DNA of 64,000 nt from Terebella lapidaria (taxonomy: Eukaryota > Annelida > Polychaeta > Terebellida > Terebellidae), in assembly GCA_949152475.1 (NCBI GenBank), contig OX424567.1, forward strand, positions 30,281,402 to 30,345,401, given 5' to 3'. Numbering within the stretch: position 1 is the first letter of the stretch; the number at the start of each line of letters is the position of its first letter. This document shows, one piece after another, positions 23,519-59,956 of the stretch. The position numbers and the translations under genes are program-made. The notes beneath the pieces were generated by a model, which saw only the letters and a list, made by a program, of their open reading frames with translations, was not told the DNA's origin and did no database searches.

Positions 23519-25345
23519 ATGGATGCAGTTGAGGAACATGCCAGAAGGTGGACTAAGCGAGAAAAAGCAGAAACTGATTCTCTGTCAGAATGGGTCAAAC
23601 AAATTAGGTCGTTGCTGTCTAAACGCATTCGTGTTTTGTCTAAGTCAGTCAGTACTAAATACAGCTCTGTCTTTGATGATCCAGTGGTTGCTGATAGTTT
23701 GTTGAAACTCTGAGAAAAAATTGTCATTGTTCCTGCTGATAAAGCATCCAATAATGTTGTTTTTGTATGTAAAGCATACTAAATTCAGTGCCTATTCAAT
23801 GAACTTGGTATCTCTAACAACAACACTTCTAACCGTACATACCAGGATATTACTATATCTAAGCAGGATATATTATCTAATCACACGTCTGTATTGCATT
23901 CTTTTGGTATCACTGCTTCATGTAAAGATTACAAACTACCCAGTTTATACTGGATCCCAAAATTACACAAAAATCCATACAAACAAAGGTATATTTCAGC
24001 CTCGGCATCATGTTCCACCAAAGCTCTCTCTAAGCTATTAACTGTTATATTGTCAAAGATTAAACATGGTCTCCAAAATACTGTGAGACTATTTACTCTA
24101 GAAGTGGTATCAACCAAATGTGGATACTAAAAAATTCCAAATCTTTGTTGGAGTATCTACATGCTCACACACTTTCAAAAGTTACGTCTATCAAAACATT
24201 TGACTTTTCCACTCTCTACACCACTATACCTCATTCAGACCTAAAGTCCCAGTTTCAAAAGCTCATACATAATTCCTTTTTCTCCAAAAGGACAACGTCG
24301 TTATAAGTATATTGTAGTCAAATATAATACAGCCTACTTTGTTGAAGATGATTCAGATGCTCTGCATAAATATACAGAAACCGATGTTGTGAATATGGTT
24401 AATTTCCTTATTGATAACATCTTCGTGGAGTTTGGTGGCCGGATATTCCAGCAGAATATTGGTATTCCAAAGGGTACAAAACTGTGCACCATTATTGGCA
24501 GATCTGTTTTTATACTCATATGAATCAGATTTCATCCAACATCTACAAAGAGGAGTATCCAAGTTTCAAACTAGTAGCTTCAATTTCACCTTCCGATACA
24601 TAGATGATGTATTGTCAATAAATATTCCCAAGTTTGGTGATTATTTGGATGATATATATCCTAAGGAACTTGAAATTAAAGATACTACAGACTCCTCTAA
24701 TTTTTCCAACTATTTAGACCTAAGGTTGGAGATTGATGAAGATTCTAACCTGTCAACTAGGTTGTATGACAAACGTGATGATTTCAATTTTTCCATAGTC
24801 AATTTCCCTTTTCTAAGCAGCAACATTCCTATGTCGCCAGCATATGGCGTGTTTGTCTCACAACTCATACGCTATTCCAGAGCTAGTTGCAAGTATGAGG
24901 ACTTTGTTCACAGAAATTCCCAGCTAGCCTCTAAACTGCTGCGACAGGGATATGTTTTACCAAGACTAATAGCTGCTTTCAAGAAATTCTATGGATGTCA
25001 TCACAATCTGGGTGATAAGTACACAAAATCTATTACAAGTATGCAACAAGACCTTTTTGCATGTTAATGTTTTGGAATTCATGACGGGTGCCACATGTGG
25101 GGCAGGAAATGCTCACTCTTCCCGGAACACCTGATTTCACCCCTTTATGGCAACATATGGGGGTTCATGAAATTCCATTTAAATTTTTTTCCGATTTTGC
25201 CTGACACTGGACTTTGAGATTGGATGATGGACTCGGTTTTGTTTGCTCGGATACTATATACTTGGGTATTGTTTCCATGTTTAGCGAACTGTCAAATCCC
25301 ATTTATCTTACATTTTTGGTATGAGTTACTTTATGAATAAAGATG
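23519..25345 (+). pseudogene. Penelope-like reverse transcriptase element, frame-broken
   Basis: Homology runs continuously but across several frames from 23519: 'EEHARRWTKREKAETDSL', 'IVIVPADKASNNVVFVCK', 'LYWIPKLHKNPYKQRYIS', 'FDFSTLYTTIPHSDL', 'GIPKGT' followed by 'APLLADLFLYSYE', 'FRYIDDVLSIN', 'YLDLRLEID', 'LYDKRDDFNF', 'NIPMSPAYGVFVSQLIRYSR' and a final 'KFYGCHHNLGDKY'. The last part (24411-25067) is one open frame of 218 codons holding the RT catalytic YIDD. No GIY-YIG endonuclease follows; a short downstream frame (MLTLPGTPDFTPL...) and an AATAAA at 25336 close the element. The RT class fits Penelope-like elements or a near relative; the exact clade is uncertain. At least three frame changes upstream of 24411 make it non-functional as read. 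Confidence 0.7.
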
Positions 25346-46580: not shown

Positions 46581-46776
46581 ATGTCAATAACATCTATACA
46601 CACCAACTACATGGTTGGTACACACCAACTACATCTCCGATATCAGGTGTTCACTATGAGTGGTATGAGTGGAATAAATTCTATGGTCACTCCAAAGTCT
46701 GTTCCACGTTCCTCGACCATGTAGCAACAGTAGAATCACTGTCCGGAACCTGACATAGCAGACAGTATTTAACTCT

Positions 46777-46880
46777 GATCGACTTTCCTTATTGTTAGTG
46801 ACCTTACCTTTTGATCGATTTCCCTTACTTTTTGTAACGTGACCTTTTGATCGATTTCCCTTACTATTTGTGACTTGTGT
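46777..46880. repeat. 36-bp tandem repeat, about 2.8 units
   Basis: 'gatcgatttcccttact' followed by 'ttttgtaacgtgacctttt' recurs at 36-base steps. Since 36 is divisible by 3, it gives a repeating minus-strand peptide that I regard as an artefact. Confidence 0.8.
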
Positions 46881-47276
46881 TGAAATGAAATATGTATAGC
46901 GATTGTATAGCCTAGATCGAACAGAACCAAGTAGCACTAACTACTGGGTGTACATTTTTGCATGTTCTTCAGTTATTCATTTCAGTAATTTTGGATTCGA
47001 CTACCGTAACCTATTTACCGGACTACCTTAACTGGCATCATCTACGTGACTACCGTTATGTTAACGAATAGTTTTTCTTCCCGAATGTAGTGAAATATTA
47101 TTCATTATGAAACTCAAATAATAGTAGCGTTGACAAAAATTATGGAAAAGTAACCCCGGAAAAAAATGCATCAATCTGTGAGTATGTAAGTAAGTAGGTA
47201 AGTACAATTCAAAGTAATTTATTTCAATCTCCCATGACACTGGGCACACTCCAGACTCCATGTGTTGCATTGTATG
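46881..47276. other. No gene seen; left flank of the large retroelement
   Basis: AT-rich flank. Bases directly before the left arm (gtatg) do not match those after the right LTR (ttatt), so no target-site duplication is visible. Confidence 0.5.
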
Positions 47277-47672
47277 TGTAGTAATTTTAGCGACTGTAAC
47301 TCCCGTCCCTCCCGCGCATACATATTTCCACAACAAACATTCATTCTACATGACTTACATACAGGACAAGTACACACTATACGATCACAAGCATAAACTC
47401 CATGTAGTCATGGTTACATACACAGGTCAAACCACGCACCTGCGGCCCCATTTATTCGGTACACTCGACCCAGTATATTCGGCCTTGACCTTCACATGCA
47501 CTGACTTCTAAACATAGAACTTGACACACATACCCCACGCATCCCGTGCACAGTTACAGTTAATACAAGTCTTGACACGCGCCGGGGAAACCCACTTTCC
47601 CGGTGTGATCAGCGCATACCAGCATACATCCAACCAATCACAACACCGCATGCACTTGGCGGGAAATTACAC
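47277..47672 (+). repeat. Left terminal arm: inverted partial copy of the LTR
   Basis: Starts TGTAGTAATTTTAGCGACTG and runs with about 93 per cent identity (eye alignment) against the reverse complement of 59560-59956. Similarity stops at 'ggcgggaaattacaca'. A regular 3' LTR would be in the opposite orientation. Even the GGGTCG-type motifs are inverted here (cactcgaccc, cggccccat). Confidence 0.9.
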
Positions 47673-47940
47673 AGTCATTAGTCACTACGATGATACATTT
47701 ACAATTACATGCATAACAATGAATGGAATGAAAGATATGGAATGTATGAACAAAACTCCTCGACGTTTCATAGTGAAACGGAAACTAAAACTTTAAGAGT
47801 CCAATGAACTGAAAAGAAAAGTTTGAATTAACCTTAACTAATTACATGTATAAAACTAAACTGCCGTGGCTAGGATATAATGATGATATGTACAACTATT
47901 TACAACATATATATATATATACCGTGACCAGGATTGTTTG
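47673..47940. other. AT-rich junction between left arm and ORF3
   Basis: About 260 bp free of the GGGTCG motif and unlike the corresponding LTR part. It ends in a (TA)n run and 'GTGACCAGGAT' (47924-47934), nine bases of which (GACCAGGAT) also occur in the PBS at the right end. It may be the diverged remainder of a plus-oriented LTR. Confidence 0.4.
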
Positions 47941-47991
47941 GTCAACTCTGGGCCGCATCAAAAGGGGGGCCGAACAGTTCAGGGTCGAATC

Positions 47992-48714
47992 TTATTTCCT
48001 CTCCCGTCCACGTTTGCCAGCGGGAGGGGGCTGGGCCGCAGGAGACGCCTGACGCATCAAGGTGAGTTGTTCGTCCGGAGGGAGCTTTGGCAATATGGCG
48101 ACAATGGTGGCCAAGAGGTCCTCCGGAATGGCCGCTGTAGTTGGGGTCGACGAAGCCGCAGCTTGTGGTTCGGCCGGGGTCGAAGTAGTGCGGAGTTGTT
48201 CGACCTCCTGCCGAAGATCTGTCACTTGACTCTCTAGTTGCGTGACTCTAGCGCGCAGGCGTCGATTTTCCTCCGACAAGTCGTCCGGAAATGTGGGTTG
48301 GTGACGCTCATGTAGCGAACCCATGGCGAAGCCCACTGAAAGGCCGTTGTATTCAGCTTGCCGGATGTGATGGTCCATGGCCGACACGTACTCCCGCCGA
48401 ATGAGTTGCAGATACTGCTGGGCCATGTCGTCGGCTCGCGCCAGTGCCACAGTTGGAAGATGCTCTTCCGCTTCCGAAGGCAAGAGCAAGGGGTCGGCAC
48501 TGTGCATGACTTGATTGAGGCGATCGATCCAAAAATCGTCGTGATGGCCGATCAAGTTTGGAAGCCTCCGGGCGTCCTCGTCCCGATCGGGGTTTTGCAG
48601 GGTCGGGTTTTGGCCTGGCAGGGCCTGTAGGCCGGGCAATGTTCGTGTCGACAGCCGGCTCCCATGTTGCCGCAAGAACTGGTAGTCAGCGGCAAATTCT
48701 CCCGATCCGTGCAA
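47992..48714 (-). CDS. ORF3, C-terminal part: leucine-zipper protein
   Basis: The 240-codon frame overlaps the end of the 48686-50638 frame and most likely continues the same protein after a +1 step at about 48.7 kb. Residues about 145-178 form a coiled coil with leucines at exact heptad spacing (LRARVTQ LESQVTD LRQEVEQ L), preceded by 'EENRR'. The rest holds a helical, acidic section (FWIDRLNQVMHSADPLLL...) and a Pro/Ala-rich stretch; the end 'KRGRERK' is a possible nuclear-localisation or nucleic-acid-binding tail. There is no membrane segment or signal peptide, so it is not an Env-like protein. Function unknown; dimerisation is inferred from the zipper. Confidence 0.65.
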   Translation of the reverse strand: MHGSGEFAADYQFLRQHGSRLSTRTLPGLQALPGQNPTLQNPDRDEDARRLPNLIGHHDDFWIDRLNQVMHSADPLLLPSEAEEHLPTVALARADDMAQQYLQLIRREYVSAMDHHIRQAEYNGLSVGFAMGSLHERHQPTFPDDLSEENRRLRARVTQLESQVTDLRQEVEQLRTTSTPAEPQAAASSTPTTAAIPEDLLATIVAILPKLPPDEQLTLMRQASPAAQPPPAGKRGRERK

Positions 48715-50638
48715 GGGAAGGAGGCAGCGGGGTAGCCTCCACCATCCTTCTGGACGGTGTGGTCGACTCTCTCGGGGCCGGTGGATTTACTGGGGTCGAA
48801 AGTTCGGGCGAATCTGTCGCGATCTCCCTTAGAGGAGGCGGCAGGTCGGGTTCCTCACCGAGAGGTTGAGTCGTCTGAGCGGGAGTCAGCATGGGCTCCG
48901 CGAGCTTCTTCTCCAAAGGTGGGAACTCCTCTGGCGGGGGAACTAGTCCCTCTCGAACCCTGTAATCGGTCACATTAGAGGCCGTGGGTCGTTCCACTAT
49001 CATCCGCCGTGGAATGACATCCGAAGGTCGGGTTTGTGTCGGGGCCGAACTTGACGTCGTGGTAGCCGAAGATACCGTCGTCGAAGACACGACAGCCGCG
49101 AATGTCGTGGATCCGCTAGAAGCCGTCGTCGTTGGTGCCGTCACCGGAACCTCTTCAGCCATTTTTACCGAAGTGGTCTGGTATGTAATGGGCCGGACGA
49201 AAAATATAGTGCTGGGCCGACGTACACGTACCCACGTGTTCATTGTCTCTATATCGCTCACCATGCGAGCGAGCCGAACTTCGTCCGCCGGCGTCGTCGC
49301 CCGATTATACTCCAAGCGACGGAGAACCTGTTGGACTTCAGGGGCCGAATTTGGTGGGTACTGGTCGAAAAGTTCCGGGGCCATATGCCAGATCCCAAAA
49401 GTCAAGACGGTGTTGACATCTCTCCTGAAGATGGGAATATTAGCCGGAACTCGAGGGGGCCGATAATTGGGATTCGGCTGCATGTCGACTCTGCAGCGCA
49501 GCGCGAACCTTACCAGCATGGGGCCGGTTGCCGTGAGCCTTCCTTCGTAGTAAAACGGGAAGGACGTGACATGTAGCGGGGTCGACTGCGAAAGATGCTG
49601 AAACATCTCCTCCTGGGCCAGGGTGATGAAGCCGTCACGAGCCGGACATACGAAAAATCGCAGGAACGGGAAATGATACGCTAGAACGTGTGCGTCTAGC
49701 GTCTGGGCCAAACGGAAGGGTCCCCGACGTGGCACGGTAGACCACCGTCGCTCTCCTTCTCCTTCCTCCTCACCAATGCAGAACGGACACGCGTATTGTC
49801 CGTCCTCACGCTGAATCGGGGCCAGTGTCAGGATATTACCCTCCGACAGGGTTGACGGCTCGTCGAAGTTATGGGCGTGCCCATAACCCACACTCCGGTT
49901 CCGTCTGCTGAGTGGAACTTGAGTCCAGTCTATTGGCCGAGTACCGTATGGCGTTATCGGTGGTGGTACCAGCGCCATTAGTTCCGCTACTTGTCGGCGG
50001 AATGTCGAAGTCGGGGCCGAAGATCCGGAGCTGCTCCGGGATGAATCGCTAGAAGTAGAGCTAGCACCTGTGCCCTGTCTCCTCTTCATATTGGTATACG
50101 CGCGCTTGGTGGGCGAGCGCGTTACCTTGGGCCGAACAACTGCAGAACTGGTCGCAGGTGATGTCGGGACCGGCGCGATCGGGGCGATCGCGTGTGGGGC
50201 CGAGCTGGGCTGTCGAGCTGCAGCGGCCGCTTGTTGAGCCTCCTCGGCTGCTTTCCGGGCCTCAATGGCTTGGCGAACAATACTCCCGCCTTTCTCGAGT
50301 AGGCGGAAGCGCTCAGGGTCGGTCGAAAAGGGATCGTCCTGGGTCGGGCTAGGCGTGTGGCGCACTCCTCTTTGCGCCAACTTATCCCGTACCGTTTTGG
50401 GTCGAGCGCTGGCCTCCGATCCACTTGCCGTGTCGCTGAGCGTAACTGGGTCGAGCTGCTCAGGCTGCGAGTCGGGGCCGGACGAAGATTCGTTGTCGGG
50501 GACGATTATGGGATGATCCGATTCATCCCCGGTGTCGACTACTTGAACGGTGATGTTCTCGCCATCCAACTTGACCGTGCGGGGCCGATTTTCATCTGGG
50601 TCGCCTTTATCCCGGTCATCCCCGGGTTTGTCAGCCAT
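48686..50638 (-). CDS. ORF3, N-terminal part: large non-Env protein with a zinc-finger-like segment
   Basis: 650 codons from an ATG at 50638 (MADKPGDDRDKGDPDENRP). N-terminal third: acidic, then Ala/Gln-rich helix (EARKAAEEAQQAAAAARQ) and Ser-rich linker. Middle: a globular part with 'YACPFCIGEEE' and, about 30 residues on, 'LDAHVLAYHFPFLRFFVCPA', giving C-x2-C ... H-x4-H (about residues 286-322), followed by 'FQHLSQSTPLHVTSFPFYYE' and 'RVDMQPNPNY'. C-terminal third: Ser/Thr/Pro-rich low complexity. Not recognised as any standard retroelement protein; gypsy-type elements with a third ORF usually carry env or a nucleic-acid-binding protein. Separated from pol by 1.44 kb, so it probably needs its own transcript, splicing or internal translation start. 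Confidence 0.7.
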   Translation of the reverse strand: MADKPGDDRDKGDPDENRPRTVKLDGENITVQVVDTGDESDHPIIVPDNESSSGPDSQPEQLDPVTLSDTASGSEASARPKTVRDKLAQRGVRHTPSPTQDDPFSTDPERFRLLEKGGSIVRQAIEARKAAEEAQQAAAAARQPSSAPHAIAPIAPVPTSPATSSAVVRPKVTRSPTKRAYTNMKRRQGTGASSTSSDSSRSSSGSSAPTSTFRRQVAELMALVPPPITPYGTRPIDWTQVPLSRRNRSVGYGHAHNFDEPSTLSEGNILTLAPIQREDGQYACPFCIGEEEGEGERRWSTVPRRGPFRLAQTLDAHVLAYHFPFLRFFVCPARDGFITLAQEEMFQHLSQSTPLHVTSFPFYYEGRLTATGPMLVRFALRCRVDMQPNPNYRPPRVPANIPIFRRDVNTVLTFGIWHMAPELFDQYPPNSAPEVQQVLRRLEYNRATTPADEVRLARMVSDIETMNTWVRVRRPSTIFFVRPITYQTTSVKMAEEVPVTAPTTTASSGSTTFAAVVSSTTVSSATTTSSSAPTQTRPSDVIPRRMIVERPTASNVTDYRVREGLVPPPEEFPPLEKKLAEPMLTPAQTTQPLGEEPDLPPPLREIATDSPELSTPVNPPAPRESTTPSRRMVEATPLPPSLARIGRICR

Positions 50639-52078
50639 GCTGACGGGCCGAAATTAAGTCGGAGTACTTCCTAAGTACTGACTAGGCTGGTTGTAACAGA
50701 GTCCGGATTTCTTCAAAACCAGCCTAGTTCAAATGCCGATAATCAAAGCCGAAGTCTTGCGACCAGGATTTAAACAATGTCAAAGTTTATAGGCCGACAA
50801 TATTATTCACTTTTGCAGTGTTTTTATAGCAATAGTCCGTATTCCAGTATATCCGAAACTTTAGTACCGTCCTTCTCCTCTAAAGTCTCAGACGCAAATG
50901 ACCTGATTGCCGCTAATCTTCACTGCCGTACACAAAGATGCTGACAGCATCTCAATTCTTAGAACTGGGTCGGGGGGCGCTCTCTATCTGTATAGAAAAC
51001 GTCTTTATGCTATGTATCATTGTTCCAAGCGTACACACAGCGAGGCGGGGCCGTCGTCAAGGAAACGCAGAGCGATCCTTCTCTGACCTCTTGGGTCAGT
51101 CCATTACGACAGTAGGGGTGTCCTCACACTGTCCAGATTTCCGTATGTCCATCTGCCGTCCCCTGGATAACTCGTTCCGAAACATTGTCTATTTTGTACT
51201 AATCGACTGTTCGAATTACTGGGCTCTTTTTGGCCGACGACTCACTATTGTCTTTATCAGGGGAGATTTCACGTGGGTGCTGTAAACAGCCAAAATGTTT
51301 ATTTGCGCTCGTGCGTGCCTTGTGAACTAAACAGTTTATCATTCCTTCTCCCACAAGTTAGCGCACAATAAACTACGGGGTCGAGTTGCTGTTTCACAGA
51401 CGACACACAGTTATTAAAGGCTGAGATATGAATATCAATCACTCACAGGGGTGGACATCGTTCCATTCATTTTCAGGAAGTTCACAAGACGACGGGGCCG
51501 CAAATATTGTAGGGGTCGAAATTGCAATGAACTGGGTCGGTCACACCGCGGCGCTTTGAATATTTTGGGTGATGAATTTGGTGACAGGCCGCATCTTGGC
51601 ATGATAGCTATGTAGTGACTGGTTCCCGTACCACTGGGCCGTACCTCCGAATATTACATGGAGTGAGTAGAGGCTCTGTCGACGCATACTCCAGAACGAA
51701 TCACACTATCACCTCTTCGACAACTAAGTGGCCTTACTCACGGTGTGACTAGTTATTATCCTCTTCGGCTGGCACATGGATTGAAGCTTTACATGATAAT
51801 CTTAGTCATTGCGTAACATACGCCTTGATCAATGGTACATGTTATACGGGGTCGAAACACATATCATAATGCAACCAATTTTTCACCAGCATCATAATTA
51901 TAATATCATCTCTAGTGTGTATATATATCGAATTTGCCTCACTGACATTTTGTACATATTAAATGCATATATTGTTATTGTAATATAATATATTATTGTA
52001 GGGACAGACATGATATCATAGTCCATTAGACATGCATAATTCATCATCAATGGTATCAATCAGATAACAAGGCCGGGG
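50639..52078 (-). other. 1.44-kb spacer between pol and ORF3
   Basis: No convincing ORF on either strand (the plus 50938-51285 frame lacks any motif). It still contains the strand-specific motifs (about ten, for example at 50991, 51054, 51375, 51495, 51518, 51535, 51849), hairpins next to ORF3, and AT-rich sequence with TATA-like runs around 51.92-52.0 kb in the pol-proximal part, which could hold a subgenomic promoter or splice signals. Confidence 0.6.
50664..50728 (-). promoter_or_regulatory. Two perfect hairpins just upstream of the ORF3 start
   Basis: ACTAGGCTGGTT (50681-50692) pairs perfectly with AACCAGCCTAGT (50717-50728) across a 24-base loop, and AGTACTT with AAGTACT (50663-50679) across a 3-base loop. 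They lie 25-90 bases upstream of the ORF3 ATG on the sense strand. Role unknown: RNA leader structure or protein-binding palindromes are both possible. Confidence 0.6.
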
Positions 52079-53614
52079 TTATCTGTATCGGGCCGGTTTG
52101 CGTGCGTTGCGTCTGGGTCGATTTGGTCGTGCAGGCGGGGGCGTAGCCTCGCTTGTCTCAGGGTCGGAAGATACCACAGGCTTTTGCCTGCGCGTCTTGC
52201 GTGCCGGTTTTGGAGTGTCGGAACTTGATCTGTGTGATCTTTTCCGTTGCCGATGTCGACTTGAGCCGGATGAGGTCGGAGATCGCGGTTGGCGATTCTG
52301 GGTCGTTAGTGAATCAGACTCAGCAGTTTGGTCTGAATCGGTATGCCGATCTTGCACTGTTACCTCCCAAGGATAGTAGAACTCTTTGAGAAGTCCCATG
52401 GGGTCGGGCGACTGTTCTGGGTCGGAGTGACTTGACGACGTTGTGGGTCGTACAGGGTCGGAGTAAATGTGGGCCGCTTGGTTGTCACCTTCGTATGGCT
52501 TGAGCACATCCAGATGAACCACACGAGTGTTCCGAGGATTGGAAACCAGGGCGATTCGGTAATCAACCTCGGTTACACGGTCGATGATCCTCCAGGGACC
52601 AGTCCAGGGCCGAGCGAACTTATTATTCTGCGTGAGTGGCAGATAATAATACCGGACCAGTTCGCCTGGTTGAAACTGGGGTCGTGGTTTTGCGTGGGCG
52701 TCATAACCCATCTTTTGCCGAATTGCCGCTTTTTCGAGATGGTTTTGGGCGAAACCGTGGGCCGTCCTGATGGCTTGCCGCAAATACTCCACATACTCCG
52801 GACCACACGGAGGTAAAGGCTCAGGGTCGTAAGTCGGGAACATGAGGTCGACTGGCAAGTTACACTCGTGTCCGTACACCATCAGATGCGGGGTGCATCC
52901 CGTGGACGAGTGTACTGAGGTTCGGTAGGCCATTAACACATATGGCAAGTGCAAGTCCCAATCGTTTGCACGATCGCTGACGAACGCACTCAGCATGTTG
53001 AGCAATGTCCTGTTGAATCGCTCAACTTGGCCGTCGCTCTGAGGTCGATATGGGGTCGTACGAATCTTTTTAGTGCCCAGTAGACGCACAACATGCCGGA
53101 ACAGGGACGACTCAAACTCAGTACCTTGATCGCTATGGATCGCTTTGGGGACACCGTGGTAGACTATCCACCGATTCACCAGGGTGTCGGCAACATTTTT
53201 GGCCGTATGTCGCCGTAGCGGAAAAGCGTCAGTGTACTTCGTAAAGTAGTCCGACACGACCAGGACATACCGATGGCCTCTTCCCGTGACCTTGTGGGTG
53301 TCGAGGATGTCCATCGCTATTCTGTCGAACGGCGCTCCTGTCGGTAGCTGTGTCAGGGGCGATCTTTTTGGGGCCGGTTTACCCTTGCGGGTCACACATT
53401 GCGGGCAGCGGGCACACCAGCGGGCGACGTCCAACGCCAAGCCGGGCCAGTAGAATCGGCGCCTGACTCTCTCGATGGTACGCTGTATGCCGAGATGTCC
53501 GACAATCTTTAGGTCGTGTAGTTGGTGCAGAACTTGTGTCCTGAGTGCTACGGGGAGCACGGTTTGCACCACAGGCCGTCCGGCGGGGTCGGGTTTTATA
53601 TGTCGAACCAGCAC
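52079..53614 (-). CDS. Integrase (Ty3/gypsy pol, C-terminal part)
   Basis: 511 codons. N-terminal HHCC zinc domain about residues 29-75 (LHQLHDLKIVGHLG ... CARCPQC). Catalytic DDE core: Asp in 'IAMDILDTHK' (about 101), Asp in 'HSDQGTEF' (about 161), Glu in 'SDGQVERFNRTL' (about 198). A GPY/F-like module follows (PWTGPWRIIDRVTEVDYRIA). The C-terminal 120 residues are Ser/Pro/Arg-rich with a basic end (RPNRPRRNARKPARYR). No chromodomain. It inserts the reverse-transcribed DNA into the host genome. All catalytic residues are present. It is out of frame with the upstream RT-RNase H frame, overlapping it at 53596-53614; a one-base loss near there would explain the break. Confidence 0.93.
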   Translation of the reverse strand: MLVRHIKPDPAGRPVVQTVLPVALRTQVLHQLHDLKIVGHLGIQRTIERVRRRFYWPGLALDVARWCARCPQCVTRKGKPAPKRSPLTQLPTGAPFDRIAMDILDTHKVTGRGHRYVLVVSDYFTKYTDAFPLRRHTAKNVADTLVNRWIVYHGVPKAIHSDQGTEFESSLFRHVVRLLGTKKIRTTPYRPQSDGQVERFNRTLLNMLSAFVSDRANDWDLHLPYVLMAYRTSVHSSTGCTPHLMVYGHECNLPVDLMFPTYDPEPLPPCGPEYVEYLRQAIRTAHGFAQNHLEKAAIRQKMGYDAHAKPRPQFQPGELVRYYYLPLTQNNKFARPWTGPWRIIDRVTEVDYRIALVSNPRNTRVVHLDVLKPYEGDNQAAHIYSDPVRPTTSSSHSDPEQSPDPMGLLKEFYYPWEVTVQDRHTDSDQTAESDSLTTQNRQPRSPTSSGSSRHRQRKRSHRSSSDTPKPARKTRRQKPVVSSDPETSEATPPPARPNRPRRNARKPARYR

Positions 53615-55728
53615 TCGTCTTGTAGCGCCAGGAGGTTCCAGCGGGAAACAAGTGTCTTTACCTCCTCTCCTTGGCGGGCGACTTCTCTAGAGTCAGGCTT
53701 GGTGCCGGCTAACATCCATTGCCGCACTTTTCCAACGCTGGGGTCGGCTTGCTGTGCCGCGACAATGTCCTGGGTCGAATAGTCCGAAAGCCACTTTTGT
53801 CCATCAAGTGTGGCGTCCAAAGCACGGACTCGAACAACTTGGCGTGCCGAAACTAGTTGGGGCAAGACCGGTGATGTCATAGAATCACTGTCCAGGAGGT
53901 CTGCCCTTGTCTGGGTCGGAACAATGGCGATCCGACGAACTGGAAGCTCTCCGGAACTTGTTTCGGGGTCGGTCGGAGGTGTGACGAGTCGTCCGGGACA
54001 GTCTTGGTGTTTACAACTGTGGCACCGTGACAGGCCGTCGGCGTTACCGCGTAGTTTTCCGGGTCGATGCTCTATCCGAAAGTCATACTGCTGTAGTTTG
54101 GCGAGCCACCTAGCGAGCATGCCGTCGGCGTCGCTGTAGTTTTTCAGCCACCTCAGCGAGCTAGGGTCGGTCCGGAAGAGGAATTTCCTGCCCCAGAGGT
54201 AATGCCGATAGTGCTGCACCATCTCCACTACTGCCAGCAGTTCCCGACAGGTGGTGCAATAGTTCCGTTGGGTTCGGGAAAGGGTTTTACTGGCGAACCC
54301 GACGGGGATCTCCTTCCCGTTAACCCTTTGCGAGAGGGCACCTCCTACAGCAAAGCCGCTTGCATCCGTGTCGAGGATGAAGTAGTCGTCCGGATTCTGG
54401 GTCGGATGAGCGAGCTTTGGCGCCTTGATGAGGGCGTCGCGGAGTCGCTGGAAAGCTCGTCGCTGGGCCGGTCCCCAAGTGAAGTGGCATTTACCTCGGG
54501 TAAGCGCTACGAGAGGTTCAGCGATCTCAGCGTAGTCCTTGATGAATCGCCTGTGATAGTTGGCGAAGCCACGGAAAGCCCTGACGTCGGTGATCTCGCA
54601 CGGGGTCGGCCATTCCCTGATGGCTTTGACTTTGTTGGGGTCGACTCGAATTCCTTGGCCGCTCACTATGAACCCTAAGTACAAGATTTCCCGTTGGAAC
54701 AACTCGCACTTCTTGGGCTGAAATTTCAGGCCTGCCGATCTGATCCGATCCAGGACCGCTTCCAAGTTTGCGAGTGCCTGATCGAATGTTCTGCCGTAAG
54801 CTATCACGTCGTCGAGATAGCACATACACCGGGTCCACAAGTAACCACGGAGTATGGTCTCCATAAGCCGTTCGAAGGTTGCCGGGGTGTTGCTAAGGCC
54901 GAATGGCATGACCTTAAACTGATAGAGTCCCTTCCTTGTGGCGAAGGCAGTCTTCGGTCTGTCGCTAGGGTCGACTTCGACCTGCCAGTAGCCGGAGGCT
55001 AGGTCTAGGGCCGAAAAGTAGTTGGCGCCTGCCAGGGCGTCATGAGTGTCCTGAATGTTGGGCAGGGGATACGAGTCCTTGCGGGTGACGTCATTCAGGA
55101 GCCGATAGTCGACGCAAAATCTCACTTGGCCGTTCTTTTTACGCACGAGCACCACCTGTGCGCTCCAGGGCGAATCCGATGGCTCAATGCACCCCAAGCG
55201 GAGCATCTTGTCGACCTCCTCGTCGATGATGCTTTGCTGCGCCTGAGGGACGCGTCGCTGTCGTTGCCGAATCGGGGCCGTGTTGCCAGTGATTCTATGC
55301 TGGACGACTTGGGTCCGTCCCAGTTGGCCGTCTGGGTGCATGAACGTGTCCTGGTATTGGTGAACCAGGTTGGCGCAACGCCGGTGCTGCTCCGGCGCTA
55401 ATCCGGCGCGATCCACCATCTCTTGTAGATGTGGCGGTAGGTCGCGGTAGTGGCTGGCGTCTACCGTGGCTGGGTCGGGCTCCTCTCCGGGTCGTGGTAG
55501 AGCTCCGACGAAGCTCTCGACAGGACTGGCTATTGCAACGGGGTCGGAGCGGGTAAGCGTAATGCCGGTATCTGCTGGATTGACTACCAACACTTTTACG
55601 CATTGCCGATTCAGGGTCGTAAGTGTTCTCCCCATGATGAGGTCAGTTTCCTCGGGTAAGGCCGTTAGTGGTTGGATTATCCGCGGGTGTCGACGGACTC
55701 GAACTCGGGAAGTTGGAACCAGTTCCAC
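53596..55728 (-). CDS. Reverse transcriptase and RNase H (Ty3/gypsy pol)
   Basis: 710 codons; the frame is open further upstream than 55728, where it overlaps the end of the protease frame. RT domain about residues 150-320: 'IEPSDSPWSAQVVLVRKKNG', 'FCVDYRLLN', 'FSALDLASGYWQ', 'FGLSNTPATFERLM' and catalytic 'CYLDDVIAYG' (about 304). RNase H about 440-570 with 'ILDTDASGFAVGGALSQ', 'ELLAVVEMVQHYRHYLWG' and 'NADGLSR'. The usual TDH of this family reads 'RTDPSSLRWL', a possible damaging change. Then 'PTQTRADLLDSDS' linker and the start of the integrase region. It copies the RNA genome into DNA in the Gag particle. Confidence 0.93.
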   Translation of the reverse strand: MELVPTSRVRVRRHPRIIQPLTALPEETDLIMGRTLTTLNRQCVKVLVVNPADTGITLTRSDPVAIASPVESFVGALPRPGEEPDPATVDASHYRDLPPHLQEMVDRAGLAPEQHRRCANLVHQYQDTFMHPDGQLGRTQVVQHRITGNTAPIRQRQRRVPQAQQSIIDEEVDKMLRLGCIEPSDSPWSAQVVLVRKKNGQVRFCVDYRLLNDVTRKDSYPLPNIQDTHDALAGANYFSALDLASGYWQVEVDPSDRPKTAFATRKGLYQFKVMPFGLSNTPATFERLMETILRGYLWTRCMCYLDDVIAYGRTFDQALANLEAVLDRIRSAGLKFQPKKCELFQREILYLGFIVSGQGIRVDPNKVKAIREWPTPCEITDVRAFRGFANYHRRFIKDYAEIAEPLVALTRGKCHFTWGPAQRRAFQRLRDALIKAPKLAHPTQNPDDYFILDTDASGFAVGGALSQRVNGKEIPVGFASKTLSRTQRNYCTTCRELLAVVEMVQHYRHYLWGRKFLFRTDPSSLRWLKNYSDADGMLARWLAKLQQYDFRIEHRPGKLRGNADGLSRCHSCKHQDCPGRLVTPPTDPETSSGELPVRRIAIVPTQTRADLLDSDSMTSPVLPQLVSARQVVRVRALDATLDGQKWLSDYSTQDIVAAQQADPSVGKVRQWMLAGTKPDSREVARQGEEVKTLVSRWNLLALQDECWFDI

Positions 55729-56015
55729 TATCGCTTCGCTGCGTGCAGGGACGTGACTGCTCGGCGCACAGCCATTCTAACAACATTGGCTTCAATGTCC
55801 TTGTGCGCGAACATGATCTCCTTGAAGACCTGTATGGTCCCCTCGCCATAGTTCACCACAGAATGAGCTTGCCGAAAGAAGTTCATTCCTAAAATCATGC
55901 CGTCATGTATGTCAGCCACACAAAATGTTACGACCATATGGTTGGTTCCGACCTGGATCGGAAGGTCGACTATTCCATCGATGGGGCTCGACTGTCCGTT
56001 AATGTCACAAATCAT
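55728..56015 (-). CDS. Aspartic protease, C-terminal half (frame fragment)
   Basis: 95 codons containing 'VVTFCVADIHDGMILGMNFF', matching the second structural loop of retropepsins (hydrophobic-hydrophobic-Gly), and leading into the linker before RT. It is offset by one base from the upstream fragment that holds the catalytic Asp and by one base from the RT frame. As read the protease is split, so a working polyprotein cannot be made from this copy without frameshifting. Confidence 0.75.
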   Translation of the reverse strand: MICDINGQSSPIDGIVDLPIQVGTNHMVVTFCVADIHDGMILGMNFFRQAHSVVNYGEGTIQVFKEIMFAHKDIEANVVRMAVRRAVTSLHAAKR

Positions 56016-56605
56016 GCCGAAGTGGGTCGTAGTTGCCGTTGGTCGGCGGGAACATGCCGGAGCTGGTCGCGACGGAGCAAGGAGATTTGCGCTCCGGAAT
56101 CGAGTACAGCCTGCATTGTCTTTTCACCAACATGTACTGGCAACTTCCAGCATTTGTGATTTGTGGCGCTGGAGTTGTTGATGACGGGCGGAATTTCTGG
56201 GTCGTCTGGCGGCGGCTTGAAGAGCGTGTGAAGAGGCGGTAGCTTGGATTCCGGTCCGCTCGGAAAGGCGTAAAATCCTCCATCGTCGGAGATCCATTCC
56301 ACCTCGGACATGCTGTCGGTTCCGGTGCCGTTGGCGGTCGGGGGCGACACCCCTTCAGGATGATGGTTCCCACGTGGAGGTCGCTGCGGACGTGGTGCGG
56401 ACACCTCTTCCTGACGAGAAGCCGGCGCTGGGGCCGTTGGATGACACTTGGTGCACACCCCTTCAGAGAACTGAGGTGTGAGCTGGGCCGGCTGCGGGGT
56501 CGTTACTGGTGTCGATACCAGTGCGGTAGTCGTGGCAACCGCGGGTGTGGAGCGGGGAACATGGTTCTGTTGTCCGGAAGGTTCTTGCTCCTCAGTACCT
56601 TCCAC
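56012..56605 (-). CDS. Pol N-terminus with protease active site (frame fragment)
   Basis: 197 codons from just past the gag stop: a Pro/Thr/Gln-rich linker, then near the C-terminus 'EKTMQAVLDSGAQISLLRRD', the D-S/T-G retropepsin active site. The frame is open upstream of 56605 into the last 45 or so bases of gag, in the -1 frame relative to gag, the arrangement expected for a programmed -1 frameshift, although no standard XXXYYYZ heptamer was found in the overlap. The frame stops at 56012 right where the next fragment begins. Confidence 0.8.
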   Translation of the reverse strand: MEGTEEQEPSGQQNHVPRSTPAVATTTALVSTPVTTPQPAQLTPQFSEGVCTKCHPTAPAPASRQEEVSAPRPQRPPRGNHHPEGVSPPTANGTGTDSMSEVEWISDDGGFYAFPSGPESKLPPLHTLFKPPPDDPEIPPVINNSSATNHKCWKLPVHVGEKTMQAVLDSGAQISLLRRDQLRHVPADQRQLRPTSA

Positions 56606-59151
56606 TACCGGTTTGACGACTGGGTCGGAGGCGTTGGTTGGGCCGGTTTGGTTTGGTCACCGGTTTGGTTAGGTACTGACAACACTTGAGCTGTCCTTCT
56701 GTCAGTACCGGGACCATTGGGCCGAAAGGCTAGCGGTTTCATGCCGTTACGCACTAGCACATCTTTAAGCCGGAAACACCGCATCCAGCGATGGCCGGGC
56801 TTCTTACAGAAGAAGCATACCATGGGTCGTCGGGGTTGCGGGGGTCGATCACCTTTAGTCGGGGCCGTAGTTCGCAGGACAGAGTAAATGGCCGCCTCCT
56901 CACATAGTCCATTCTCGTCACTAAGGACGCACTGAAAGGCTTCCGTCACCCACTCGCGTGAGCTAGATGGCACTGAATGTTCGTCGCAACCCTGTAGGCC
57001 AGTGGTGTCGCTGTCCGCGGGGTCGTAATAGGCCGCTATTTGCTCCGGGGTTGGTGTTTCCCCCTGAGTGACTTGTCCCATGGCACAGGACAGTTCTCCG
57101 TTAACGGTGTCGTCTTCCGCATATCCGCTCACGGAAATGTCGGCACGTCGCGTGCCTCGGTGTCGATCTCTGGCTGTCCTCTGCTGGCGACTCTCTGCTT
57201 TAAGAAGGGCCGTTAGTGCCTCACTGTAGCTGTTAAAAGTGAAAACACACAGTTTATCAGCAATGGGGTCGGGTTGGCCGTTAACGAATTGGGCAATTAC
57301 AGTTCGTTGCCGCGACTCTGGCGTGACGTCATCGAACACTTGCTCCGCCAGAGCTTGGAGTCGCTCCATATAGTGTTCCGCGTCCTCCTTTCGTTCCCTC
57401 TTGAGGAACGGGAAATCGTCCCGTTTGGACTGCCGACGGGGCGCAGGTTCCCAGCCCTCCAGGAGTTGGCGACGGAACTCCTCCCAGGGAGTAGCGACGG
57501 GGATGTTTAGAGCTAACGCTTCAGCGCGGCCGCGCAGCGTGCTCCGGAAGGTCGTCGTCTTATTGAGGTCGGAGTAAGTGAAAGCCGCAGTAAATTGTTC
57601 GAAACTCCGAATATACTGGGTGAGATTGCCCTCCTTGAAGGTCGCACGCCATTGAGCCGTTTTAGCCGTAGCCAACGTTTGGGGCTCAGACGTGAGTCTC
57701 TGTGGCGTGGGCGTGTCAACACTCACCGCAACTGGTGTAGTCGCTGCAGTGGCCGTCGGAGTCGGAAGAGCCGAAGTCGCCGGAGCCGTTGTATCTGGGC
57801 CGATCGGGGTCGCGTTAGCGGGGGCGGTTGGTGCTGTCGTCGTGGAGACGGCGAGCGATGCGGCGGGTGGTGCCGTCGCGTGACTGGGGTCGTGTGGTGC
57901 TTGTGCAGCGGGGGTCGGTTGACTGTATGGAGGCGTCACCCATGGTATCCCGACTGAGGGTGGGAATACAGCCGGTGGTGGATATCGGTATGCCGATCCA
58001 TCTGGGCCTACACCATGGTACACTAATCCGGGTTGTGCACCATGATAGCCGGTGTCAGCTATCACGCTGGGAACGCCACCATATCCGGGCGGTGGGTTCA
58101 CGTAGCCGACATGCAGTGAATAGTATCCGACAGCTACTCCATTTGGAACACCGCTTGTTGCGCCAGGGTATCCGACTGGCGGTACACCATATCCGTTGGT
58201 GTTTCCGACTGATTGTGAGATCGGATGTCCGATCATTGGCACAACACTTTCTGCTGGAGCAGACACAACTTGATCTTGCGACGGATCGAAGCGCGGTTGT
58301 TCTCCGGTAGTCGGCGACGGTGGATGCGTGGTCGGCACGGGAGCGCGTGTGTCAGAGGTCGACGTGTCGGGGTCGCAGGGTCGGCGACTTGACGTCGACG
58401 GTACTTGCCGAGGTCGCGCTTGCCGTGTGGTGGCGCGAGATTCTGTCGTCGCGTCGCGGGGTCGTTGCGGTCGTGGAGGTGTCGCGATCCGGGTAGCGGT
58501 CGTCGCCGGGATGCTCTCGGCTGTCACTCTCGCCTGGCTGGGTCGTGTGTACTCTACCAACGTTAGCTCGGTCGATATGCGTGAGTACATTTCTGGCGCG
58601 GGGTCGTGTTGTCTCGGCGTCATGGGCGGCGCCAGGGGTCGATTCGCCGAATAAGCGCTCGGCGGGATCAGTTCCGGAACATTGTGAGACTGACAAACCC
58701 ACTGTCGTATCCGAGAGTTACTTGGTGGGTGTGTAACCATCGACGTATCTATGGTTACGGGCCGAACGTTTATCACTGAATGTTCTGGGTCGATATGATT
58801 TTTGTCGGCAGAGTTTGATAGTCTCTGGGTCGTTCTAGCCGACGTAGCCGAATACGCTCTAGCGTGTGCACGCAGAATGTCACTTACTGTATGTGACGGC
58901 GCGAGCGGGTCTTCGTCTAGGAACTCCTGCACCAGGTCGGCGGGCGGCGAAGACGATCTCAGGGTCGAATGGTCACCGAATGAGTCGAACAGGCCGGTTG
59001 GTTGTTGCTCCTGCGACAGTGGGACCGTATCGCTCATGACGACTGAGCGGGGGCCGGAAGGTCGGAAGGCCGGGTTCGGATTGATCGTCACTTCGTCATC
59101 CATGGGGTCGAGCGGCTCACCGCGGGAAGCTCCCGGGGCTAATGCCATCAA
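56605..59151 (-). CDS. Gag, 848 residues, with GY-rich segment, capsid region and CCHC knuckle
   Basis: The start chosen is the ATG pair at 59151, 40 bases after the PBS. Residues 1-310: disordered, Pro/Ser/Thr/Arg-rich. About 320-395: Gly/Tyr/Pro-rich (GYGVPPVGYPGATSG, ...GYVNPPPGYGG). About 400-490: Ala/Pro/Thr-rich. About 500-665: helical capsid-like region (WRATFKEGNLTQYIRSFEQF, 'ALNIPVATPWEEFRRQLLEG', 'HYMERLQALAEQVFDDV'), as in Ty3-type Gag. About 778-792: a zinc knuckle CFFCKKPGHRWMRC (C-x2-C-x4-H-x4-C), preceded by few basic residues. The frame is intact from start to stop. It packages element RNA into particles. At 848 residues it is long for this family, mostly because of the disordered N-terminal half. 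Confidence 0.9.
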   Translation of the reverse strand: MMALAPGASRGEPLDPMDDEVTINPNPAFRPSGPRSVVMSDTVPLSQEQQPTGLFDSFGDHSTLRSSSPPADLVQEFLDEDPLAPSHTVSDILRAHARAYSATSARTTQRLSNSADKNHIDPEHSVINVRPVTIDTSMVTHPPSNSRIRQWVCQSHNVPELIPPSAYSANRPLAPPMTPRQHDPAPEMYSRISTELTLVEYTRPSQARVTAESIPATTATRIATPPRPQRPRDATTESRATTRQARPRQVPSTSSRRPCDPDTSTSDTRAPVPTTHPPSPTTGEQPRFDPSQDQVVSAPAESVVPMIGHPISQSVGNTNGYGVPPVGYPGATSGVPNGVAVGYYSLHVGYVNPPPGYGGVPSVIADTGYHGAQPGLVYHGVGPDGSAYRYPPPAVFPPSVGIPWVTPPYSQPTPAAQAPHDPSHATAPPAASLAVSTTTAPTAPANATPIGPDTTAPATSALPTPTATAATTPVAVSVDTPTPQRLTSEPQTLATAKTAQWRATFKEGNLTQYIRSFEQFTAAFTYSDLNKTTTFRSTLRGRAEALALNIPVATPWEEFRRQLLEGWEPAPRRQSKRDDFPFLKRERKEDAEHYMERLQALAEQVFDDVTPESRQRTVIAQFVNGQPDPIADKLCVFTFNSYSEALTALLKAESRQQRTARDRHRGTRRADISVSGYAEDDTVNGELSCAMGQVTQGETPTPEQIAAYYDPADSDTTGLQGCDEHSVPSSSREWVTEAFQCVLSDENGLCEEAAIYSVLRTTAPTKGDRPPQPRRPMVCFFCKKPGHRWMRCFRLKDVLVRNGMKPLAFRPNGPGTDRRTAQVLSVPNQTGDQTKPAQPTPPTQSSNR

Positions 59152-59189
59152 TGCCGGTCGGGTCTGGGTCGAAGATCCGAGACTAGCTC

Positions 59190-59210
59190 AGATCCTGGTC
59201 TACGGCGCCA
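59190..59210 (-). promoter_or_regulatory. Primer-binding site next to the 5' LTR
   Basis: Sense strand TGGCGCCGTAGACCAGGATC begins one base after the LTR end (...TTCACA, t). TGG pairs with the CCA end of a tRNA whose 3' part would be GATCCTGGTCTACGGCGCCA. I cannot name the tRNA with confidence. Confidence 0.75.
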
Positions 59211-59211
59211 A

Positions 59212-59956
59212 TGTGAAGAATATCGTTCACGGCCGATATCAAGCCGATGTACTGGGACGTTGCGTATATAAAGCCGGCAGAACAGTTCAATGATTTATTG
59301 GGATGAAACTGTTCAATGATGCATATATTCCACAACATAGAGGCCGATCACACCTACGTCGGTGATTTTCCCAGTCGAATTATATCCTTGTATTATAGTC
59401 CTTGGTATATCTTGTACATATAATCAACAGCTTATATAGCACTTGTATCTAGTTCGTATATATATCGTCAATCTTCACACTCAATAGATTTCACGTCCTT
59501 TCACTGTCATTACTTCTTCTACTCTGCGCAGATAGCTGGGGCCGGGGGACCATGTGCTTGTGTAAGTTCCCGCCAAGTGTATGCGGTGTTGTGATTGGTC
59601 GAATGTATGCTGCAATGCGTTGATGTCACCGGGAAAGTGGGTTTCCCCGGCGCGTGTCAAGACTTGTAATGCCTGTATCTGTGCACGTGATGCGTGGGGT
59701 ATGTGTGTCAAGTTCTATGTTTAGAAGTCAGTGCATGTGAAGGTCAAGGCCGAGTATCTTGGGTCGAGTGTACCGAACAAGTGGGGCCGCAGGTGCGTGG
59801 TTTGACCTGTGTATGTAACCATGACTACATGGAGTTTATGCTTGTGATCGTGTAGTATGTACTTGTCCTGTATGTAAGTCATGTAGAATGAATGTTTGTT
59901 GTGGAAATGTGTAGTGCGCGGGAGGGACGGGACTTACAGTCGCTAAAATTACTACA
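59212..59956 (-). repeat. 5' LTR, 745 bp
   Basis: On the sense strand it starts TGTAGTAATTTTAGCGACTG and ends ...GAACGATATTCTTCACA, i.e. TG...CA. A TATA-like CTATATAAG (59432-59440) lies about 140 bases upstream of an AATAAA (59292-59297), consistent with U3, R and U5. The first 397 bases reappear inverted at the left end of the element. Confidence 0.85.

Follow-up and report, generated by a model that had tools for sequence, protein, structure and literature searches.

The DNA analysed here, hereafter the window, is a 64,000-bp stretch of the Terebella lapidaria genome (GCA_949152475.1, contig OX424567.1, positions 30,281,402 to 30,345,401) that contains a Ty3/gypsy-type long terminal repeat (LTR) retrotransposon. 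The sense strand of this element carries the hexamer CGRCCC (R is A or G) 104 times and its antisense strand not once. These sites, referred to here as tags, lie in coding and non-coding parts, are constrained at five of their six positions in comparisons with related subfamilies A and B, and are replaced by a different one-strand word, CGRACT, in a sister lineage (D) of the same genome. We infer, with a probability of roughly 0.4, that CGRCCC is a dispersed sense-strand RNA recognition tag read by a lineage-encoded protein, most likely Gag, with a benefit in packaging or self-recognition. It is conceivable, and we suggest it tentatively, that co-resident LTR retrotransposon lineages carry lineage-specific RNA name tags.

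To our knowledge, it is understood for hardly any LTR retroelement how its own RNA is selected and how lineages sharing a genome are kept apart. If the proposal is true, a hexamer repeated about 80-120 times in each copy would serve as the cis-acting part, two sister lineages of one genome would provide a natural swap of it, and each lineage would recognise its own RNA through its own protein, giving a self/non-self system of retroelements. Constraint of the kind seen here in coding sequence would be misread by codon-based analyses.

Counts, polarity and codon context of CGRCCC

Tags read GGGTCG or GGGCCG on the plus strand of the window. A sequence-only reading had estimated about 100 such copies on one strand by hand (roughly 65 and 35-40); between 47,940 and 59,830 there are exactly 66 GGGTCG and 38 GGGCCG, with no CGACCC or CGGCCC on that strand. 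The same reading correctly placed the reverse complements in the inverted left arm of the element (Table 1) and none in its interior. Across the entire window the strand ratios are 69:3 for GGGTCG and 45:7 for GGGCCG, and 104 of the 114 plus-strand copies fall inside the element. An order-2 Markov model of the interior (47,674-59,558, sense strand) predicts 11.7 CGACCC and 10.3 CGGCCC, compared with 65 and 37 observed; the sense strand is C-rich. When all hexamers, and all hexamers with a single R or Y, were scanned, CGRCCC ranked first among one-strand patterns (104:0 where 22 were expected, z 17.3). Its one-mismatch neighbours are mostly near background, those raised being CGRCCT (31 vs ~8), CGRCCA (22 vs ~13.5) and CGACAC (15 vs 7), and the enrichment of CGRCCT and CGRCCA suggests that a reader may tolerate a weaker last base.

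Tags are present in every part of the element for which the sequence-only reading had claimed them, namely gag, protease region, reverse transcriptase (RT), integrase (IN), spacer, ORF3 (the third open reading frame) and LTR (Table 1). Six frames hold 88 of the 104, and the remainder are divided among the spacer (9), leader (2), LTR (2) and 3' end (3), which outside the frames corresponds to 3 per 318 bp at the 3' end, 9 per 1,440 bp in the spacer and 2 per 407 bp in the leader. There are none in the 283 bp between the protease region and RT. Codon-preserving shuffles (1000 per frame, six frames) do not reproduce the count in four frames, where the observed number exceeds every shuffle (observed/mean/maximum: gag 25/7.6/16; RT 17/4.5/12; IN 16/3.7/9; ORF3 20/4.0/11); this check, named in the sequence-only reading, is thus passed in those four, with the short protease-region (5/1.7/6) and ORF4 (5/1.2/5) frames falling within the shuffled range. 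A codon or composition origin was rejected for the former four, the protease region and ORF4 being too short to decide. All three codon phases are used in five of the six frames, including gag as had been noticed by eye (8/8/9), and ORF4 has 0/4/1. Antisense copies are absent from every frame, an outcome to which the shuffles assign a probability of ~0.012 for all six together (the product of six fractions).

Tag placement is indistinguishable from random (coefficient of variation of the gaps 0.955 vs 0.981), and regular spacing was rejected, the gaps being Poisson-like. A tandem-repeat origin was also rejected, Tandem Repeats Finder returning 0 arrays in 47,277-59,956, as was presentation in hairpins, for which a local folding model gave a mean pairing of 0.670 vs 0.676 for words of the same composition. 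A triple-tag pattern matched 2468 + 3575 places in the genome and its reversed control 4052 + 2966; because simple repeats inflate both, the total is no evidence, and the first listed places include many copies of the window element's family.

Related copies and sister lineages

The genome (761.6 Mb) was scanned for relatives, yielding 12,655 first-look candidates; 63 places, the window copy among them, were scored, which is a lower bound. Copies were read piecewise, as A2 (~13.1 kb, with ORF3) and B1 and B2 (~10.1 kb). Sense:antisense counts of CGRCCC are 118:0 in A2 and 86:1 and 83:1 in two B copies, at 8.2-9.0 per kb across the three, and the flanks of these three copies are not enriched (6 sense and 3 antisense in ~14.7 kb). 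Against A2, 91 of 101 tags are retained; for words one mismatch away, with CGRCCT excluded, the figure is 77 of 136. Against B1 the two figures are 67 of 74 and 66 of 96; the near-tag CGRCCT is retained as CGRCCY at 25 of 30 sites in A2 and 21 of 24 in B1.

Five positions of the tag are constrained and the third drifts between A and G. Substitutions at 101 sites in the A2 comparison number C 0, G 2, R 13, C 3, C 2 and C 6 along the word, compared with 17, 15 and 16 at the three positions before it (n = 101) and 19, 11, 11 and 12 after it (n = 100); C elsewhere changes in 9.6% of cases and C of CpG in 88 of 874. Silent third-base C changes are likewise rarer in tags than elsewhere, at 5/103 vs 134/787 in A2 (p = 0.0007), 2/79 vs 66/614 in B1 (p 0.016) and 1/78 vs 64/617 in B2 (p 0.006), and third-base G changes are 1/28 vs 115/625 (A2, p 0.04), 0/23 vs 63/464 (B1, p 0.06) and 1/23 vs 61/464 (B2, p 0.34). 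These comparisons overlap and are not independent, because A2 pol is 97-100% identical to the B copies. Independence of sites is assumed in the tests, and related copies have a history in common; this is best avoided by the contrast among positions, the silent-site contrast and the absence of tag columns shared between A and D (see below). Together with the shuffles, the conserved motif positions support the earlier claim that selection acts on the nucleic acid rather than the protein, with lineage E as an exception.

A2 (L040, L009, L039) is a mosaic: set against the window copy and against B1, B2 and L007, it resembles the window copy more in its LTR, 5' gag and ORF3, and has a pol of B type; its sequence indicates recombination between tag-sharing subfamilies.

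Among ten copies of ORF3 (that of A2 is at L039:1113-3911), a type with 74% identity has retained 16 of 20 window tags vs 30 of 70 controls, and one copy with a stop within the frame (L047) is near neutral, with 11 of 18 tags and 35 of 66 controls kept. We also compared 28 near-identical copies over a 5.1-kb piece (mean identity 98.3%). Private changes are at least as frequent in tag columns (19-22 of 220-225) as in other C/G columns (186-192 of ~2,655), whereas changes common to several copies are fewer at tags (2-3 vs 89-90 elsewhere). The test is weak (p = 0.01 for one choice of reference copy, 0.09 for each of two further choices), and the contrast no more than suggests that selection acts on the tag in transmission and not in the host.

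A different word is found in lineage D (L059, L062, L063 and L064), whose pol frame of 1,537 amino acids has ~74% nucleotide identity to the window element. Lineage D has little CGRCCC (11:5 over 11.2 kb), and its own exhaustive scan is headed by CGRACT, with 58 sense and 2 antisense copies (12.6 expected). CGRACT exceeds all 1000 codon shuffles in all three long coding pieces (13 vs a mean of 4.2, 13 vs 2.9 and 11 vs 2.9), and is uninformative in a 99-bp integrase tail (1 vs 0.5); in the window element it is at background (9:7). Within the aligned RT-IN part, no start column is common to the 16 window tags and the 9 D tags; 2 of the 16 read CGRCCC in D and 2 of the 9 read CGRACT in the window element. 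Both words conform to CGR-x-C-y, R occupying the same position in each, and all four CGRACN words are one-stranded in D, with T the strongest. On these sequences the tag word is lineage-specific, being CGRCCC in A and B, CGRACT in D and absent from family C.

Family C is a more distant sister (13.6 kb, 54-55% protein identity to query P0015, a comparable layout including an ORF3, LTRs 99.7% identical), and an exhaustive scan of its whole length found no one-strand word (best z 5.3). GTCCGC was considered as a candidate (15:1 in L056) and dropped, its ratio being 31:15 over the whole element. Pol pieces of 4 kb from family C and six more families (F-K; for G-K pol alone was read) have no word above a Markov null (60 simulations each), at a sensitivity that is weak for faint tags, the equivalent pieces of A and B giving z of 9.7 and 7.6, but that of D no more than 5.6 where the null reaches 5.3. 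CGRGAG in family F pol (17:0, z 4.7) was discarded as lying inside the null range. Outside pol, the high-copy Ty3 family F carries TTCGCGG (mostly CGTTCGCGGAAG) 33 times in L071 and 15 times in L072, without antisense copies, and 0 times in L069. These sites are distributed as 7 + 7 in two LTRs, 26 in a long frame before pol that is presumed to be gag (phases 10/9/7), 8 in the 3' part and 0 in the pol piece, and the clusters are partly tandem, a pattern closer than that of the window element to those of the VANDAL and Sirevirus elements discussed below.

At five loci filed under bacterial genomes, Ty3 relatives with 33-43% identity have no comparable strand bias, L044 having 17:4 in a C-rich 5 kb and L041 10:12. 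Ty3-like integrase matches filed as bacterial were found in five contigs of metagenome-assembled genomes (L041-L045) and on a small 'Wolbachia' plasmid (NZ_CP087956.1); they are probably host DNA within the assemblies. Two scans of viral contigs found no relative, and the plasmid collection gave distant integrase matches only. The protein footprint of the tag (DP, RP and GP dipeptides) is uninformative in distant relatives, as judged from 40 of 120 listed IN homologues.

Candidate readers and alternative explanations

A plausible scenario is that a trans-acting reader made by the lineage, with Gag as the candidate, binds many tags along the 10-13 kb genomic RNA, and that the particle or replication machinery would thereby take up its own RNA, ignoring host RNA and less related elements. 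Point mutation would create and destroy sites singly, and RNAs with fewer sites would replicate less well. When a lineage splits, tag and reader would change together, dozens of sites being rebuilt through coding sequence to leave sisters that differ, as do A/B and D. Strict orientation without tandem duplication points to a single-stranded, RNA-level reader, because sites that appeared singly in double-stranded DNA would be expected in either orientation. Similarly, the absence of shared start columns between A and D marks their tags as separate sites, for whose near-uniform orientation double-stranded recognition gives no reason. The A2 mosaic fits joint packaging of tag-sharing RNAs. Among the roles listed in the sequence-only reading, Gag binding or packaging and a self-recognition tag fit best; a plain double-stranded transcription-factor site, also listed there, fits poorly with the 104:0 polarity.

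All 30 fetched A/B pieces have the same zinc knuckle in Gag, and that of D departs from it at a single residue (CFFCKKPGHRWMRC / ..WIRC). Alignment of A and D Gag shows a divergent N-terminal half and a conserved capsid part; tag specificity, if it resides in Gag, would lie outside the knuckle. The single family C knuckle read (L055, gag end) is CYFCGKQGHFWLKW, in which the fourth zinc ligand (Cys) is missing. Neither the B copy with listed frames (L031) nor the D copy examined contains a long ORF3, and no B piece matched ORF3. Since these copies are tagged, their reader is not an ORF3 product encoded in cis, and Gag or Pol are better candidates, although ORF3 could act in trans.

Several observations weigh against an RNA tag read by Gag. 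The near-identity of the knuckle in A and D means that the knuckle alone cannot account for two tags, and tags favour unpaired RNA no more than words of the same composition do. The ORF3 comparison is weaker in the reverse direction (16/26 vs 30/83), and lineage D is represented by one long-form element and one further 2.4-kb piece (L062, 12:0). The chief evidence against constraint at single sites comes from lineage E (L060 + L073 from one copy, L061 from another; 85-89% identical). Lineage E has CGRCCC 25:0 and CGRCCT 20:2 in 5.4 kb, but keeps window tags no better than controls (13/21 vs 36/60 and 10/16 vs 32/53). A further count gives 16/32 vs 49/117, with the last base changing most, and 21/32 vs 20/29 when C or T is allowed there. 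Our interpretation is that sites turn over in E or that its tag is loosening. Neutral drift of the motif in relatives, which the sequence-only reading had said would refute its claim, is thus not seen in subfamilies A and B, whereas in E the retention of positions equals that of controls.

One alternative is that the word is a DNA-level tag, GGGYCG along integrated copies, for an element-encoded, sequence-specific anti-silencing or chromatin protein that would bind there and hold the copies open, with ORF3 as a candidate. By analogy, VANDAL/VANC of Arabidopsis is the closest precedent for a one-strand tag; in VANC21/VANDAL21 the motif is YAGTATTAY, densely repeated and same-oriented, and VANC6 has another (PMC5735166). 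As in VANDAL, the motif here is short, dense, same-oriented, nearly confined to one family and different between sisters, the proposed reader would, like that of VANDAL/VANC (PMC5735166), be lineage-specific, and the Cys/His blocks of ORF3 look zinc-finger-like by eye. However, VANDAL elements are plant DNA transposons whose motifs are mainly non-coding and spread by tandem repeats (PMC5735166), whereas the window element is an LTR retrotransposon with most tags in frames and no arrays. VANC21 is described there as binding double-stranded DNA (PMC5735166); here the tags lie in coding sequence in all phases, their uniform orientation without tandem duplication is not explained by double-stranded binding, and the reader is a candidate only. 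Examined B and D copies are tagged without a long ORF3, and family C has an ORF3 (L056:1851-3755) with a similar short Cys/His block (9 of 24 identical, E 7e-5, a single comparison) yet no tag. We consider a DNA-level role unlikely; if the tag is read as DNA, the system would join the VANC kind as a new variant instead.

Recruitment of a host RNA-binding factor for export, stability or shielding of a long intronless RNA would fit the strand polarity, uniform spread and independence of reading frame. CAR-E type export elements of intronless mRNAs are short, sense-strand and active in several copies; they belong to host genes, are few and of different sequence, and are not lineage-specific. Two words and the lack of any word among sister families of one host argue against a single host factor, which would need replacing between lineages, and for an element-linked reader. 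With the unenriched flanks of the three copies also against it, we consider a host factor rather unlikely.

Pairing of the tag with a small or structural RNA containing GGGUCG (AGUUCG for D) would account for R, as A and G both pair with U, and the best scan patterns in both A and D have R at position 3, which changes freely (13 of 101 sites). The enrichment of CGRCCT and its retention as CGRCCY agree with this. The other wobble-compatible words TGRCCC, CGRTCC and CGRCTC are not clearly enriched, a partner RNA is neither known here nor was looked for, and six base pairs are few, making pairing improbable; that the complementary words resemble a tRNA T-arm is left as speculation. A functionless word arising from mutational or copying bias of replication (proposed in the sequence-only reading as a mutational signature) or from codon or composition bias has in its favour the C-rich sense strand, other weakly enriched words and the turnover in lineage E, but is very improbable given the shuffles falling short in four of six frames, five conserved positions beside unconstrained neighbours, and the lack of a word in a sister family of the same host (the whole of C) and in the F-K pol pieces, which a host or RT bias should also mark, although a 4-kb piece would barely reveal a tag as faint as that of D.

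Preferring an RNA tag, we compared it with other known repeated motifs. The titles and abstract beginnings of the open-licence papers that the searches listed include repeated motifs in Sireviruses and VANDALs, and no one-strand word running through LTR retrotransposon coding sequence was found among them. Packaging signals of small RNA viruses such as satellite tobacco necrosis virus (STNV) are probably read by capsid protein and are presented in stem-loops. The Neisseria and Haemophilus DNA uptake sequences are short self-recognition words accumulated by selection in a transfer step, in coding and non-coding sequence; they occur on both strands of whole bacterial genomes and are read as DNA. 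CGRCCC is like them in being kept independently of the reading frame (by position, not in lineage E) and unlike them in occupying one strand of one mobile element. Su(Hw) sites of the gypsy insulator, also in a Ty3/gypsy element, are a repeated short site in one non-coding cluster read as DNA, and are not spread across the element as CGRCCC is. The many short, degenerate one-strand RNA sites of STNV-type dispersed packaging signals are a likeness (PMC6475782). Unlike those of STNV and MS2, the tag is a sharp hexamer with one freely degenerate position and without hairpin-loop presentation. Sirevirus LTR retrotransposons carry a short repeated motif (RM) with a CGG-CCG core at exceptionally high copy number, for which the authors weigh regulation or interaction with Gag and Pol (PMC2829016). 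Sireviruses are plant Ty1/copia elements in which the RM is symmetric and lies in LTRs and upstream of env (PMC2829016), whereas CGRCCC is asymmetric, with 2 of 104 in the LTR. As neither the VANDAL nor the Sirevirus features that distinguish those systems were found, the window element is filed under neither, and a similar principle may apply.

Organization of the element and its surroundings

Pfam matches occur in the order RVT_1, RT_RNaseH, Integrase_H2C2 and rve, which places the element in Ty3/gypsy (RT-RNase H followed by integrase, between LTRs). Its features are listed in Table 1.

Table 1. Features of the tagged retrotransposon and the distribution of CGRCCC among them (window coordinates).
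Feature	Position	Strand	Tags	Basis
Ty3/gypsy-type LTR retrotransposon carrying the tag	47277..59956	- (sense = minus strand)		Pfam and LTR arms
Tag set	47940..59830	-	66 CGACCC + 38 CGGCCC sense, 0 antisense	
5' LTR, ~404 bp	59553..59956	-	2 (59,761; 59,784)	
Primer-binding-site-like stretch, immediately after LTR	59535..59552	-	overlaps tag at 59,539	read from sequence
gag frame, one CCHC zinc knuckle	56605..59151	-	25 (phases 8/8/9)	no Pfam match
Protease-region frame	56012..56605	-	5	no Pfam match; named by position and D-S-G motif
Reverse transcriptase and RNase H	53596..55728	-	17	Pfam
Integrase	52079..53614	-	16	Pfam
Integrase-ORF3 spacer	50639..52078	-	9	
ORF3, first part	48686..50638	-	20	Cys/His block by eye
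ORF4 (second part of the ORF3 frame in the window copy)	47992..48714	-	5	
3' end outside frames, adjoining inverted LTR	47674..47991	-	3 (47,950; 47,967; 47,982)	
Second LTR copy, inverted	47277..47673	+	on opposite strand (47,443; 47,466)	

The LTR arms of the window copy (47277-47673 and 59559-59956) are mutually inverted and 94% identical, without an obvious target-site duplication, and the inverted LTR meets the body of the element ~200 bp short of the position at which the 3' LTR starts in A2. The layout is a rearrangement, possibly by autointegration or by two opposed insertions. In the flanks of five other copies both LTRs were found in four, direct in 4/4, and the fifth has one LTR within the fetched stretch; the inverted geometry looks peculiar to the window copy. 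The stretch after the 5' LTR is what we take to be a primer-binding site, presumably with tRNA-Tyr as a candidate primer.

ORF3 is a single open frame of ~929-937 amino acids in many other copies and is split in the window copy (47992-50638). None of the scored candidates is homologous to it at E <= 0.001, its parts in the window copy have no Pfam match, and its predicted structure was not used (mean predicted local distance difference test score 36.7). Three 36-bp tandem units lie just outside the element at 46776-46883. Elsewhere in the window there is an RT-like open frame (24411-25067), presumably of a Penelope-type element.

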